Positions 52,261 to 63,050 of a stretch of DNA of 64,000 bases are shown here, piece after piece. Under the pieces are notes generated by a model. The model ran no database searches. It saw only the letters and a program-made list of their open reading frames with translations, and had not been told where the DNA came from. The DNA lies in the NCBI RefSeq assembly GCF_029504735.1, contig NZ_JAQFIP010000001.1:310001-374000 (forward strand). Direction: 5' to 3'. Each line of letters opens with the position of its first letter. The stretch's first letter is position 1. The translations under genes and the position numbers were made by a program. Source of the DNA: Ereboglobus sp. PH5-10. GTDB lineage: Bacteria; Verrucomicrobiota; Verrucomicrobiia; Opitutales; Opitutaceae.

Positions 52261-55092
<2,832 letters not shown>

Positions 55093-55204: not shown

Positions 55205-56584
55205 ATGCTTCCCACATCAATCAAAAAGGTGAAAGGCACGCTCCAGAGAATCTTCAAGCTTGAGGAAAATCGCACCACGATTTCGCGCGAAATCCTGGCC
55301 GGGCTGACGACGTTTGCCGCGATGGCCTACGCGCTCACCGTCAATCCCGGCATCCTGGCCGACGCGGGCATGGACAAGGCCGCGCTCGTCACCATCACCG
55401 CGCTCAGCGGCGCGGTCGCCACCATCCTCATGGCGCTGCTCGCAAACTATCCGCTCGCGATGGCGCCGAGCATGGGCATCAACGCGATCTTCACCTACAC
55501 AATCTGTCGCGACATGGGCACGGGCTGGTCCGACGCGCTCGGCATGGTTTTCATCAACGGCATTCTGTTTTTCATCCTGTCCGTGACCAACGTGCGCGCG
55601 CGCATCGTCGATTCGCTGCCCTACTCGCTCAAGATCGCCATCACTTGCGGCATCGGGCTTTTCATCGCGTTTCTCGGGTTGCAAAAGGGCGGCATTGTCG
55701 TCGCCGACCGCGACACGCTTCTCGCGGCGAGCAACTTCGCCACCCCCGAGGTCGCGCTCTGCCTCGGCGGAATCATTTTCACGATGATTCTGGTCACGCG
55801 CCGCGTGCCCGGCGCGATCATCATCGGCATCATCGCAACGACAATCGCGGGCGCGTTCATCACCGGCGCAAACGGCCGCGCGATCACGCACCTCGACCTC
55901 GCCACCGCGCGCTGGCTGCCCGCCTCGCCGGAGCCTCATTTTTTCAAGCTCACCTTCGGTTTTCTCTCCAGTTGGGACGCGTTTATCAAGGCGGTCCCCG
56001 TCATCCTCGTGCTGTTGCTGATCTCGATGTTCGACAGCATCGGCACGCTCATCGGCGTCGCCAAGCGCGCCGGGCTGCTGCGCGACGACGGCTCGCTGCC
56101 GCGCATCGGGCGCGTCTTCGTAGCCGACTCGGTCGCCGCCGCGTGCAGCGCGCTGTTCGGCACATCGACCGTCGTCAGTTACGCCGAGTCCGCGTCGGGC
56201 GTCGAGGCGGGCGGGCGCACCGGATTGACCGGCGTCACCGTCGCGGTGCTCATGCTGCTCGCGCTGTTTTTGACCCCCGTCATCCTGTGCATCCCCAACG
56301 CCGCCATCGCGCCCGCGCTCATCATCGTCGGCGTTTTTATGATGCAGTCCGTCGTTGAAATCAAAATGGGCGACTTCACCACCGCCGCGCCCGCCGTGCT
56401 CACGATCATGGCGATCCCGCTCACCTTTAGCATCGCAAACGGCATCGGCATCGGGATTCTCGCGTCGGTGCTGCTTGCGCTCTTTACCGGCAGGGCGCGA
56501 TCCATCACAGTCATCGGCTACATAATCGCCGTCATCTTTTTCCTGAAATTTTTCCAACTCTTCCCGTTCAACCACGCGGGCTAA
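55205..56584 (+). CDS. NCS2 family purine permease (AzgA-like)
   Basis: 459-residue permease of about twelve to fourteen spans. Hallmarks are EILAGLTTFAAMAYALTVNP, MAPSMGINAIFTYTICRDMG and FGTSTVVSYAESASGVEAGG, matching the guanine/hypoxanthine (AzgA) branch, not uracil permeases. The downstream GTP cyclohydrolase-like gene starts 13 bases after the stop, so the two are probably cotranscribed. Confidence 0.93.
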   Translation: MLPTSIKKVKGTLQRIFKLEENRTTISREILAGLTTFAAMAYALTVNPGILADAGMDKAALVTITALSGAVATILMALLANYPLAMAPSMGINAIFTYTICRDMGTGWSDALGMVFINGILFFILSVTNVRARIVDSLPYSLKIAITCGIGLFIAFLGLQKGGIVVADRDTLLAASNFATPEVALCLGGIIFTMILVTRRVPGAIIIGIIATTIAGAFITGANGRAITHLDLATARWLPASPEPHFFKLTFGFLSSWDAFIKAVPVILVLLLISMFDSIGTLIGVAKRAGLLRDDGSLPRIGRVFVADSVAAACSALFGTSTVVSYAESASGVEAGGRTGLTGVTVAVLMLLALFLTPVILCIPNAAIAPALIIVGVFMMQSVVEIKMGDFTTAAPAVLTIMAIPLTFSIANGIGIGILASVLLALFTGRARSITVIGYIIAVIFFLKFFQLFPFNHAG

Positions 56585-56597
56585 ACACACCGCCGCC

Positions 56598-58133
56598 TTG
56601 ACCACGCCTAAAAACACTCCCGACTTCGAAGCGCTCATCCGCCAGTTTCACCACGCCGAGGGAAGCGCCCTCGCGCCACTCTCGCCCGAGGACCGCCCGC
56701 TGCACGGCCAGACGCTCTACCTCGCCAGTTGCGAACTCGAAATGCGCTTTGGCAGTTTCCGCGCGCACATTTTTCAGGACATCATCGACAAGCATTACCT
56801 CATCGCGCTCGCGCACGGCGACATCACCAGCGCCGAACCGCTCCACATCCGCATGCACTCCTCGTGCGTGACAAGTGAAACCCTGCGCGGCTGCGATTGC
56901 GATTGCGTCGAGCAACTCGAAAGCGCGCTCGTGCTCATCGCCAAAAAACGCCGCGGCATCCTCTTCTATCTCATGCAGGAGGGCCGCGGAGTCGGCTACG
57001 CCGCCAAGGCGCGCGACCGCATGATCGTGCAAGCCTCCGGTGACCGCCTCACCACCTTCGACGCCTACGCCTCGATGGGGCTCAAAAAAGACCACCGCCA
57101 CTACGACAACATCTCGCAAATCTGCCACCTCCTCGGCATCCGCGCGCCATTCAACGTTCTCACGAACAACCCCGACAAAGTCGCCGCCCTCCGCGCGCAA
57201 GGCATCCCCATCGCCGCCACCGAGCCGCTCGAAGTCGAACCCTCCCCCTTCAACCTCGCCTACCTCACATCGAAAGCCACCTGCGGCGGCCACAACCTCA
57301 AGCGCCCCACCGTCAGCAAGGTCCGCCGCGCCGCGCCGCCCGAGCCCGTCGACGCCTTTCGCCCGCACGCCCTCGCCAACGCACGCCGCTTCATCTACGC
57401 CGCCAGCTATTTTCTCCCCATAAAACAAGTCGACGACTGCGCGCTGCTAACCGGCGAACAATACCAAAAAATAACCGACGCCCACCGCGCGCTCATCCTC
57501 GAGCACACGCCGCTTCGCGACAACCGCCACCTCGTAAAAATCTCCCCCGCCGCCCTCGCCGCGCACCGCAAGGCCAACCCCGGCGACACCGTCACCGACC
57601 TTCTCGCCGCGCCCTACTGGTTCCGCACGCACGTTTATTACGACATCGTCACCTGCCAGGAGCACGTCGTCCTCACGCACGGCCAGCCGCGCGCCGGCGA
57701 CATCCCCGTGGTGCGCCTCCACAGCGAGGCGCTCTTCAACCGCTTCCCGCTCCGCACCGCCGCCAACCGCGACAAAATGAAGCAGTCCGTGAAGCACATC
57801 ATCACCTACGGCTGCGGCGCGCTCCTACTCATTTACAACGACGGACGAGGCGCCGGCTTCGGGGCCTACGCCACCGACCTCATGATGACACAAACCGGCC
57901 AGGCCCGCACCACCGACGAGTCCTACCGCAAGCTCGGCATCAGTTACGACAGCCGCGATTACGACGCCGCGATGCTCCTTTTGAGGCAGCACATCCCGAA
58001 CGAAAAAATTCAGATGGTGATGAACAACCCCGACAGCCTCGTGAAGAAAAACGAATACATCGCCGCATTAAAAGCGCACGCCATCGACGTGGACCGCTGG
58101 ATATTCCTGGACGAGCATCCGGTGTATGAGTGA
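56598..58133 (+). CDS. Tandem-domain GTP cyclohydrolase II-like protein
   Basis: 511 residues with two GTP cyclohydrolase II (RibA)-like domains. The first (about residues 40-235) has the zinc site C90-X10-C101-X-C103 in SSCVTSETLRGCDCDC and the catalytic-loop LMQEGRGVGYAAKARD. The second (about 340-500) keeps the fold (LIYNDGRGAGFGAYATDL, MVMNNPDSLVKK) but lacks all three zinc cysteines: HSEALFNRFPLR. It starts with TTG. Only the first half can be active. No other rib genes are nearby. A role in nucleobase breakdown, like the URC1 relatives of RibA, is possible, given the adjacent purine permease. Confidence 0.8.
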   Translation: MTTPKNTPDFEALIRQFHHAEGSALAPLSPEDRPLHGQTLYLASCELEMRFGSFRAHIFQDIIDKHYLIALAHGDITSAEPLHIRMHSSCVTSETLRGCDCDCVEQLESALVLIAKKRRGILFYLMQEGRGVGYAAKARDRMIVQASGDRLTTFDAYASMGLKKDHRHYDNISQICHLLGIRAPFNVLTNNPDKVAALRAQGIPIAATEPLEVEPSPFNLAYLTSKATCGGHNLKRPTVSKVRRAAPPEPVDAFRPHALANARRFIYAASYFLPIKQVDDCALLTGEQYQKITDAHRALILEHTPLRDNRHLVKISPAALAAHRKANPGDTVTDLLAAPYWFRTHVYYDIVTCQEHVVLTHGQPRAGDIPVVRLHSEALFNRFPLRTAANRDKMKQSVKHIITYGCGALLLIYNDGRGAGFGAYATDLMMTQTGQARTTDESYRKLGISYDSRDYDAAMLLLRQHIPNEKIQMVMNNPDSLVKKNEYIAALKAHAIDVDRWIFLDEHPVYE

Positions 58134-59008: not shown

Positions 59009-59291
59009 TTTCACCATTTTCACGGAAGTATAAAAGCGCCCATCCACGCGGTGAGTTGCAATTCCTGAACGCCCGCCATTCGTGTTTTTCACGAGAGCTC
59101 AGAGTCTTACTGTAATTTTTGGGCAAGCTGGCGCGCGCAACCCGCCCCGCGCAATCTGCGGGCAAAGCTTAACCCTCGGATCCCCTCACCCTCCGCAAAA
59201 GAACGATGACCCACCCACTGTCATTTTTTCGCCTTGCTCCCCGTGCGAGACCCGAGGAACGCGCACAGAGAACCCAGAAACTGAAGAACCC

Positions 59292-62200
59292 ATGAACACC
59301 AATATACAGATATCACGTTTGCGCTTTGCGTCCATGGCCGTCGGCGGACTTGTTTTGTCCGGCACGCTGGCAATGGCGCAGGCTGTCAGGCCCGACACCA
59401 CCCCGACCTCCGACACCCCGCCGATCCCCGTCACCACACGGGCCGCCACCCCGGCTCCGATTGATGACGAGATCATCATGCTGTCACCCTTCCAAGTGGA
59501 TGCGACAAGGGACAAAGGTTATTATGCCGAGAACACCCTCGCCGGCAGCCGCATGCGAACAAATATCTCCGACTTGGGCGCGGCGATCTCGGTGGTCACA
59601 AAACAGCAGATGGAGGACACCGCATCGTTGGACATCAACGACGTGTTCAGGTATGAAATCAACGCCGAGGGCTCATCAACCTACACGCCAATCAGCGCCC
59701 CCGGACGCGCCGCGACGGGCTATGCGGACAACATCAGCGGCAACAGCACCGGCAGCGGTGAAATCAGAACCAACGCAAGCGCCAACCGGCTGCGCGGCAT
59801 GGGCGCGCCCAGCATGGCGTTGAATTACTATTCGGCGCTCGCCCAGGTTCCGTTCGATTCCTACAACGCCGCCTCCGTCGAAATCAACCGCGGCCCGAAC
59901 TCGCTGCTCTTCGGCATGGGCAATCCCGCCGGCATCGTCAACATGAGCATGGCGCAAGCGTTGATAAACAAAAACACGGCGCAAGTGATGGTGCGCATCG
60001 ATGACCGCGGCTCAAACCGCGCCTCGTTCAATTTCAACAAGACGCTCATCAAGGACAAACTGGCCGTCTATGGCGCGCTTTTGTATAATGACGAGCAATT
60101 CGAACGGAAGCCCTCCTACGACATCACTCGCAGGCAGTATGCCACCGTCACCTACCAGCCGTTCAAGAGAACCAAGATCACCGCCAGCATCGAAGGCTAC
60201 AAAAACGACGGCCGCCGCCCCAACTTTATGACGCCAAAGGATTATGTGACCAGCTGGGTCAATGCGGGCAAACCCGGCTACGATCCGCGAAGCGGCACGT
60301 TTGTCCTCGAGGACGGATCCGTGGTGCCCTATGTCACAAACGCGAACTCCCCGCTTGCTGAAAACATGGTGAACTACCTCAAGGGACTGCCCAACTTTGT
60401 AACCGCCAAATATACCGAAAAAAGAACCGACGGACGGCTCACGGGCGCCACCTACGACGGCGTGAATGTTTTCACGGCGGACATCATCACCAACATAAAA
60501 TCCCCCATGCGCATTCCCGGCATCGCAATCCACGCGTCGAGACCCTTCCAGATGCTCGACAGCGGAAACAGCGTCGGATTTTATGAGACCGCCGCCGACC
60601 GGGTGCTCGCAGCCTGGGGAACCACCACCGTCACGCCAGCCGAGGCGGACATCTGGGCAAACCCCACCTGGTATAACGCCTATAACGCATCCTATACGCG
60701 CTCCTACGGGAACGCCGCGAAATACGCCGCGACCATGCCCAGCTACAAGGACCCGGGCGTTTCCAACTCGGCGATTTATGATTGGACCGACATCAACACC
60801 AACCAGATGAATTTCGCCGAGGCCCGCAACACCAACTACAATGTTGAGTTCGAGCAGGAAATACTCCCCGGCTTGCTGCACTTCAGCGCCGGCTGGTTCA
60901 GGCAGGACTACAGGGCGGTGCAAAACTACACCGTCGCCCAACTCGACGCCGCGACCCTGTATGTGGACACCAACCTGTATCTCCCGGACGGGACGGAAAA
61001 CAAATACTTCGGGCAGGTTTATCTGGAGGACACGGACGCGGACACATGGGAAACCAGCATCAACACCGACCAATACCGCGCCATGCTGGCCTTTACCCCG
61101 GACTTCACCAAAAACAAGGGATGGACCCGCTGGCTGGGGCGCCACAACATTCTCGGCCTCGTCTCCCATCATGAAACGGAGACCAAGACCTATCGGAAAC
61201 GCCTCATGTTCGTGGGCGCGGGCAGCGAGGCGAGCGCCTTGCGATACCTGCCCGATCCGACGCGGGGCAGCACATGGTCATACACATACGGGCACGGCTC
61301 CCGGGTTGGCCGCAGCGAGGACGGACGGGCCGCCTATCGCATGTATTACCTCTCCTCTCCCGGCGACCCCGGCGGCGTGGTCACGCACGCCTCCGGCGCA
61401 TGGTCCGGCGCGACCTCCTACACCGGCGATATTCTGGGATACAATTACAACACCAACCAATGGGAACCCTACAACATGACCATGGGGCTTTCCACCCACA
61501 GCGCCGGCACCGACAGGCAGGAACGCAAGCTCCTCTCCTACAGCACGGCAATCACCAGCTACCTGTGGAAAGACAGGCTCATCACGACATTCGGCATCCG
61601 CCGCGATGAAAACAAAACCCGCACCACCGACAAGGGCGCCACAACCAACGCGCAAAAATTCGTGGACGGATATTACCAGACTGAATACGTGAATTCATTC
61701 AGAACCAAATGGAACGAGCTCAACGGCACCACAAAGACCGTTGGCTTCGTCCTGAAACCCTTCCTGAACTGGGAGGCGATTGAAAAACGGGCCGCGGACG
61801 GCAACCTGTTTTGGGAATTCGTGCGCGACTTTGGCATCAGCTACAACAAATCCGACAATTTCGACGCCCCTCCCGCATCCTACGTCGATTACTTCGGCAA
61901 CGCCCTGCCCAAGCCGGTCGGAAACGGCAAGGACTACGGCGTGCAATTCTCGCTGTTCCAAAACAAACTCTTCACACGCATCTCCTGGTTCAAGGCGACC
62001 AGCGAGAACAACTATATCAACCCCAGCTCCGCCGGCTCGCGCCTGACCACGCTCATCGACACCAACTCATTTCGCGGCTGGGCGGAACGAATCGCCCTGC
62101 TCAACCTCACCAACATGAACGTCGTGGGATCGCCCACCGACACCGCCGACTGGGTGAACCTCGCACGGGCGTCGGTCAACGAGGACGCGCTCAAGACCGA

Positions 62201-63050
62201 AATATCAAGGATATGGGGACAGGATTATGACTACTACGCGAACCTGCCCGGAACCCCCTACGGCACACAGACCCTTGAGGCCAAGGGTGTCGAAGTCATG
62301 ATGAACTACAATCCCACCCCCAACTGGACCATGCGGCTCACCGCGGGAAAACAAAGAACTGTTTATAACAACGTGCTGAAGGAATTCGACGCGTGGTATA
62401 ATCACCGAAACCAATTCATGGAAAATGCGCGCGCCGCCGACTTCCTCAACGCGGACAAGCAGCAATACGCCACCTACACACCGTTCAATTCGACCACGCC
62501 GGTCATTTTGGATGAGTTCTGGCAGAGTTCGGGTTACATAGCCGAATACGGCCCCAACAATGCCTATGGTTACAGAGTCGCCCGCGACTATTACGAAGGC
62601 GTGGTGACGCCCGAGGAACTATTGGCCAAGATTCTGCAAGGACAAGTTGCGCCGGGACAACGGAAGTATCGCGCCTCCTTTGTGACCAATTATGTCTTCA
62701 CCCATGGTCCCCTGAAAGGGTTCTCCGTTGGCGGCGCCCAGCGCTGGGAGGACAAGGCCATCATCGGTTATTACGGCAAAGCCAGCAACCCCCTCACGCC
62801 CGAGAAAATCGACCTGGCGGACACCTCGCGCCCGATGTATGACAGCGCCAAGTGGTATACCGACCTCTGGGTCGCCTACACATGCAAGGTCTTCAACAAC
62901 AAGGCGCGCATGAAAATCCAACTCAATGTGACCGATGTCTTCCAAGACGGAGAGTTGCAAGTGGTCGCGAGAAACTACGACGGCTCCCCCGTCTCGTATC
63001 GCATCATGGACCCGCGCAAGTTCATCCTGACAGCCACCTTCGATTTCTAA
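59292..63050 (+). CDS. TonB-dependent outer-membrane receptor
   Basis: 1252-residue outer-membrane transporter. The start at 59292 gives the signal (RLRFASMAVGGLVLSGTLAM). The region 58-100 (DDEIIMLSPFQVDATRD, then GYYAENTLAGSRMRT and NISDLGAAISVVTKQQM) is the TonB-box/plug leader typical of Opitutaceae receptors. The long beta barrel ends FILTATFDF with a terminal phenylalanine. The size is that of SusC-like or large siderophore and carbohydrate receptors, but no SusD-like partner is adjacent. The substrate is unknown. It is flanked by octamer-array palindromes and has its own terminator. Confidence 0.95.
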   Translation: MNTNIQISRLRFASMAVGGLVLSGTLAMAQAVRPDTTPTSDTPPIPVTTRAATPAPIDDEIIMLSPFQVDATRDKGYYAENTLAGSRMRTNISDLGAAISVVTKQQMEDTASLDINDVFRYEINAEGSSTYTPISAPGRAATGYADNISGNSTGSGEIRTNASANRLRGMGAPSMALNYYSALAQVPFDSYNAASVEINRGPNSLLFGMGNPAGIVNMSMAQALINKNTAQVMVRIDDRGSNRASFNFNKTLIKDKLAVYGALLYNDEQFERKPSYDITRRQYATVTYQPFKRTKITASIEGYKNDGRRPNFMTPKDYVTSWVNAGKPGYDPRSGTFVLEDGSVVPYVTNANSPLAENMVNYLKGLPNFVTAKYTEKRTDGRLTGATYDGVNVFTADIITNIKSPMRIPGIAIHASRPFQMLDSGNSVGFYETAADRVLAAWGTTTVTPAEADIWANPTWYNAYNASYTRSYGNAAKYAATMPSYKDPGVSNSAIYDWTDINTNQMNFAEARNTNYNVEFEQEILPGLLHFSAGWFRQDYRAVQNYTVAQLDAATLYVDTNLYLPDGTENKYFGQVYLEDTDADTWETSINTDQYRAMLAFTPDFTKNKGWTRWLGRHNILGLVSHHETETKTYRKRLMFVGAGSEASALRYLPDPTRGSTWSYTYGHGSRVGRSEDGRAAYRMYYLSSPGDPGGVVTHASGAWSGATSYTGDILGYNYNTNQWEPYNMTMGLSTHSAGTDRQERKLLSYSTAITSYLWKDRLITTFGIRRDENKTRTTDKGATTNAQKFVDGYYQTEYVNSFRTKWNELNGTTKTVGFVLKPFLNWEAIEKRAADGNLFWEFVRDFGISYNKSDNFDAPPASYVDYFGNALPKPVGNGKDYGVQFSLFQNKLFTRISWFKATSENNYINPSSAGSRLTTLIDTNSFRGWAERIALLNLTNMNVVGSPTDTADWVNLARASVNEDALKTEISRIWGQDYDYYANLPGTPYGTQTLEAKGVEVMMNYNPTPNWTMRLTAGKQRTVYNNVLKEFDAWYNHRNQFMENARAADFLNADKQQYATYTPFNSTTPVILDEFWQSSGYIAEYGPNNAYGYRVARDYYEGVVTPEELLAKILQGQVAPGQRKYRASFVTNYVFTHGPLKGFSVGGAQRWEDKAIIGYYGKASNPLTPEKIDLADTSRPMYDSAKWYTDLWVAYTCKVFNNKARMKIQLNVTDVFQDGELQVVARNYDGSPVSYRIMDPRKFILTATFDF

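Follow-up and report, generated by a model that had tools for sequence, protein, structure and literature searches.

A duplicated GTP cyclohydrolase II-like protein of Verrucomicrobiota, representing a new subfamily and possibly a new purine-catabolic pathway

Here we report a protein of Ereboglobus sp. PH5-10 in which two GTP cyclohydrolase II (GCH II) domains stand in tandem, the first with a complete zinc site and the second without zinc cysteines. The gene belongs to a GCH II subfamily that has not been described before, and conservation of the doubled protein throughout its family is far beyond chance. We consider it somewhat better than an even bet that the tandem protein acts as the imidazole-ring opener of an undescribed purine-nucleotide catabolic route, one analogous to the URC pathway in which the protein would not itself be URC1. 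The gene was found in a 64-kb window, by which we mean the whole stretch of Ereboglobus DNA that was analysed, and the features relevant to it are as follows:

52261..55092, minus strand: gcvP, glycine decarboxylase P-protein, divergent neighbour of the permease gene
55205..56584, plus strand: NCS2 permease (PF00860), AZG1/AZG2-like adenine/guanine permease, 459 aa, co-directional with the tandem gene
56598..58133, plus strand: tandem GTP cyclohydrolase II-like protein, TTG start, 511 aa, single open reading frame
56724..57302, plus strand: half 1 (aa 43-235), GCH II domain with zinc site C90/C101/C103 and D165/R167 (E. coli D126/R128)
57603..58115, plus strand: half 2 (aa 336-506), GCH II fold without zinc cysteines, with R373 (R49), GRGAGFGA at 416-423 and D451-S-R453-D (D126/R128)

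The first-pass annotation had described a gene that begins with TTG 13 bases after an AzgA-like permease gene and lies far from other rib genes, and both observations hold. The open reading frame coordinates are exact, with 13 bases between the permease stop and the tandem TTG, and the nearest solved relatives of the window permease are the plant adenine/guanine permeases AZG1 and AZG2. RibE lies ∼180 kb away on the same contig, and the RibB-X and RibD-type proteins are encoded on other contigs. Relatives G001 and G002 share both the TTG start and the Leu-Thr-Thr N-terminus; no strong Shine-Dalgarno sequence was seen before the TTG, and for this reason the predicted exact start is given as plausible. 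Downstream of the tandem gene, a large TonB-dependent receptor with a Plug domain (1322 aa) occupies positions 59082-63050 of the plus strand; from position alone we draw no kinship between it and the TonB receptors at other tandem loci.

Both halves are matched by PF00925 (genomic E-values of 3.1e-38 and 4.9e-15), and the whole protein scores 183 bits over two stretches, the cut-off being 23.3. The subfamily model NF001591 is passed (197 versus 148 bits, a whole-protein score over two stretches), and the TIGR00505 equivalog score of 152.1 bits is below the cut-off of 205.85. Profile searches of the protein found no RibB domain, and no GTP_CH_N domain at an E-value of 0.1. The complete C-X10-C-X-C zinc site that had been read in the first half was recovered as C90-X10-C101-X-C103, invariant in 53/53 aligned orthologues. 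The second half does keep the fold without a zinc cysteine, as first proposed, since it is matched by PF00925 and confidently modelled, and all three cysteine positions are substituted (by S/A, V/A/L/M and N/S), with no equivalent cysteine. In E. coli GCH II numbering, half 1 has kept C54, C65, C67, Q70, E92, G93, R94, T114, D126, R128, T149 and K154 in 14/14 sequences. Half 2 retains R49, S52, G93, R94, R128 and P152 in 14/14 and D126 in 13/14, and has lost the zinc cysteines, Q70, T149 and K154. The residues called catalytic here are those that we take to be so in the E. coli enzyme. Two positions of half 1 depart from that enzyme: Glu53 is replaced by an invariant Ser, and the counterpart of Tyr105 is Arg141 in an ungapped alignment, or the following Met142 if an alignment gap is moved, both residues being invariant in the 53 orthologues.

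AlphaFold2, run on the alignment of 53 orthologues, models both halves of the tandem protein with confidence (mean pLDDT 87.6). The best Foldseek match of the model is E. coli GCH II (2bz0; TM 0.93 on the target, rmsd 1.7), followed by UTP cyclohydrolase (7eev/7ej3) and RibBX, and half 1 shares 36% identity with the E. coli enzyme (2BZ0). In a tree, half 1 and half 2 are sisters with a support of 92, on long branches and apart from RibA and RibX. The two PF00925 copies bear out the original description of a tandem GTP cyclohydrolase II. Because the tree pairs the two halves, internal duplication of a GCH II domain is the simplest origin, and the protein probably arose in this way. Derivation of half 2 from a RibB-X domain was not supported, as the X domain groups apart from both halves. 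Half 2, a zinc-less copy with phosphate-side residues, probably serves as a partner or in substrate handling; it could complete a pseudo-dimer or be a domain for handling nucleotides. The first-pass annotation had put forward a regulatory role for this half; what the analysis shows is that the half is conserved across the family with its Arg/Asp motif kept, and that this motif has changed in two gut-type lineages.

A scan of GTDB genomes identified ∼80 orthologous loci, in Verrucomicrobiota/PVC records wherever the title was informative, and both halves are kept in all 53 full-length orthologues aligned. Some orthologues have very long open frames, which are frames open upstream and were not counted as fusions. 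A plasmid search returned no tandem; among the matches listed, no more than 72% of the query was covered at ∼31-35% identity, and most were ordinary ribA.

Neighbouring genes were counted at 80 orthologous loci and, for control, at 20 loci that each span 17.5 kb and surround RibB-X or RibE. Among the tandem loci, a gene for an SIS-fold protein was counted at 43, an AZG permease at 27, a TonB receptor at 20, RidA and Amidohydro_2 at 18 each, a purine nucleoside permease (NUP) at 16, an amidase at 15, HGXPRT at 13 and DUF3891 at 9. Adenine deaminase (8), CTP synthase (8), PNP (6), creatininase (6) and formamidase (4) were rarer, and each of the counted genes was found at 0/20 control loci; taken individually, formamidase and creatininase are not significant. 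The permease lies directly upstream of the tandem gene at 20 of the 68 loci with enough upstream sequence. Neighbour content differs from lineage to lineage, which weighs against the catabolic reading; near-complete gene sets occur at loci L141 and L147, the former bringing together creatininases, formamidase, amidase, RidA, tandem, SIS, PNP, HGXPRT, NUP, permease and adenine deaminase. Creatininase-family gene pairs and an FmdA-type formamidase adjoin the module at L092, L105, L147 and L141. In a Verrucomicrobiales-type group (L119, L122, L126, L128-L131, L134), the tandem gene has CTP synthase on its downstream side, mostly as the very next gene, and no SIS gene was found at these loci. In G001 the gcvP gene occupies the same place, and in one further lineage, G031 (L050/L104), it adjoins the module, compared with 0/20 control loci. 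Glycine is a known product of purine breakdown, and the gcvP neighbour fits, as a weak and possible indication, glycine as an end product.

The most frequent neighbour, which encodes the previously undescribed SIS-fold protein, is directly downstream of the tandem gene and on the same strand at 39 of the 66 loci with enough sequence. No Pfam match was found for its protein; the AlphaFold model (pLDDT 85.5) has a fold like that of phosphosugar isomerases and the GlmS isomerase domain. Among 213 genomes of the phylum, the SIS gene was present in 11, all of them tandem carriers and beside the tandem where inspected. Conversely, 11/12 tandem carriers in this sample have it, the sole exception being the window genome (Fisher 1.5e-17, phylogeny uncorrected). 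The same association was seen in 57 relatives, with the gene in ten, all tandem carriers (Fisher ∼2e-7, phylogeny uncorrected). It is absent from the window genome and its genus relatives (G000-G003). One relative, G007, carries two tandem copies (L042, L043), with an SIS gene beside only one of them.

From gene content, synteny, co-occurrence, residues and predicted folds we infer a substrate, a product, an order of steps and a role for half 2. At these loci, importers of purines together with nucleosidases, HGXPRT and adenine deaminase point to the conversion of purine bases to nucleotides. A purine base or nucleoside would be imported by the AZG permease and NUP/PNP, then deaminated and ribophosphorylated by adenine deaminase and HGXPRT. 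Half 1 would perform the entry step, a zinc-dependent opening of the imidazole ring of the purine nucleotide as in GCH II. The SIS-fold partner may remove or isomerise the ribose phosphate, and formamidase, creatininase-family hydrolases, amidase, RidA and Amidohydro_2 could finish the fragments. We regard as evenly poised this full sequence of events, in which the base is salvaged to the nucleotide, its imidazole ring opened by the duplicated GCH II paralogue, and deribosylation by the SIS protein and the action of amide hydrolases follow. Such a route would be for purines what the URC pathway is for uracil, and Verrucomicrobiota/PVC bacteria are the only ones in which it has so far been found.

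The proposal may be set against systems already described. E. coli GCH II (RibA, 2BZ0) and half 1 are alike in fold, zinc site, catalytic Asp/Arg and GTP-site residues; unlike the E. coli enzyme, the tandem protein is duplicated, its second copy is zinc-less, Tyr105 is replaced and Ser stands for Glu53. It also differs from RibA in its purine-catabolic neighbourhood and in falling below the TIGR00505 equivalog cut-off (152 versus 205.9 bits). RibBX of the 6MNZ type resembles it in having a degenerate, zinc-less RibA domain; however, RibB-X is a separate protein in the window genome, and the GR and T114 positions, largely retained in half 2, are missing from the RibBX X domain, which also stands apart from both halves in the tree. 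With URC1, the UTP cyclohydrolase of a pathway whose roles are described in PMC7530994, the analogy is that of a RibA-fold ring opener in a nucleobase catabolic cluster. As in that pathway, the tandem clusters apparently act on nucleotides and include a phosphoribosyltransferase as well as a partner that handles the ribose. In contrast, the tandem has no GTP_CH_N domain, and no UPRT or DUF1688 partner was found with it; purine genes and an SIS-fold partner are present instead. The purine breakdown routes in PMC12507026 (oxidative via uric acid, xanthinase, and the reductive uric acid pathway) share with our proposal the use of purine as a nitrogen source and hydrolytic amide steps, but none of the routes described there employs a ring opening of the GCH II type. 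Literature searches for the tandem/purine gene module found no description of it.

The alternative that survives best, although we think it unlikely, is that half 1 serves in Ereboglobus as the riboflavin GTP cyclohydrolase II, re-used since RibBA lost its zinc site. The window genome has RibE and RibD-type genes, and its sole other PF00925 protein, found by a search of the contigs, is the following:

G000:C2:58832-62278 (locus L001): RibB-X, with a RibA half lacking any zinc cysteine

It had been anticipated that a catabolic role would be contradicted if this were the only RibA in a genome with otherwise complete rib genes. What was found comes close, in that half 1 is the only zinc-complete RibA domain of the genome, and falls short in that a separate, zinc-less RibB-X exists. 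This near agreement does not discriminate, because 28 of 44 good-quality relatives have RibE and RibB-X and neither the tandem nor a canonical (zinc) RibA. C54 is missing in 27/27 RibB-X X domains inspected. Archaeal GCH III was considered as the missing flavin enzyme and rejected, with none above the cut-off in 57 relatives. From their gene content, most members of the window's order appear to synthesise riboflavin although no GTP cyclohydrolase II can be recognised in them. Beyond this order, a canonical RibBA gives the strongest PF00925 match in nearly all listed genomes; it is also present, at 225-258 bits, in the tandem carriers examined there (G069, G197, G258-G265). Together with the 28 relatives that lack the tandem, these carriers argue that it is not the general flavin enzyme of the genomes that hold it.

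Within the genus, re-use for flavin synthesis is favoured by the strong constraint on half 1 (dN/dS ∼0.1; dN 0.043 and dS 0.45 between the window and G002), by the absence of the SIS partner from the window genome, and by changes to the half-2 motif YDSRDY in two gut-type lineages, G002 (SESRDC) and, separately, the Opitutaceae contig L111 (HDNRDH). The AZG purine permease 13 bases upstream and the replacement of Tyr105 in half 1 argue against it, as do the 28 relatives with RibE and RibB-X that apparently make riboflavin with neither the tandem nor a zinc RibA. An Amidohydro_2 gene lies beside the permease in G002 (L068) and G003 (L136), and G000 and G001 hold an orthologue elsewhere (∼74% identity; the G000 copy at C2:220784). 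The pathway genes found in the window genome are the permease, the tandem and this unlinked Amidohydro_2, in family searches that covered some of the pathway genes. Since only these three were found, in Ereboglobus either the route is reduced or the tandem is partly re-used. The initial suggestion of a nucleobase catabolic rather than a flavin enzyme is thus supported for the family, by the purine neighbourhood and the separate RibBA outside the order, and less so for this genome.

It is also conceivable, at a clearly lower probability, that the tandem makes a pyrimidine or pterin-like precursor of some metabolite and has no part in purine degradation. GCH II paralogues serve some antibiotic pathways, and replacement of Tyr105 could change the product. 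A change of Tyr105 to Met reportedly gives a formylated product in Streptomyces coelicolor, and such a product would offer a link to the creatininase-family protein ArfB; the analogy is only partly applicable to the tandem, as the ungapped alignment puts Arg141 at this position. Against a precursor role, the neighbours are importers, nucleosidases, a phosphoribosyltransferase and amide hydrolases, and no biosynthetic gene set was seen among them.

Very improbable is the link first proposed, to uracil breakdown by a UTP cyclohydrolase of the URC1 type: the protein matches the structures 7eev/7ej3 of UTP cyclohydrolase in fold and, weakly, in sequence, but membership is rejected on the NF005536 score (18.7 bits, cut-off 403) and the domain content, with GTP_CH_N missing, and the genes nearby belong to purine rather than pyrimidine metabolism. 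The window genome has no third PF00925 protein as a candidate URC1, and DUF1688 was not found there by a search whose control was silent too; URC1 is left as the closest parallel in function and as a remote match in structure. Nor is there much to commend a relic under weak selection in the window's genus, for which the absent SIS partner and the altered half-2 motifs of G002 (SESRDC) and L111 (HDNRDH) speak, and which is opposed by a half-1 dN of 0.04 against a dS of 0.45 (window versus G002) and by the intactness of all motifs in the window copy.

Annotation pipelines are likely to label the tandem proteins as riboflavin enzymes. A gap also comes to light in the window's order, in most of which the first riboflavin enzyme is not recognisable despite the presence of RibE. 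The sequences represent a new subfamily and possibly a new pathway. If our preferred reading of a purine-nucleotide ring opener is true, a chemistry of purine-ring opening borrowed from vitamin B2 synthesis would join the routes already described (oxidative, xanthinase and reductive uric-acid), in bacteria that live in soils and lakes and, like Ereboglobus, in insect guts, habitats in which purine nitrogen matters.
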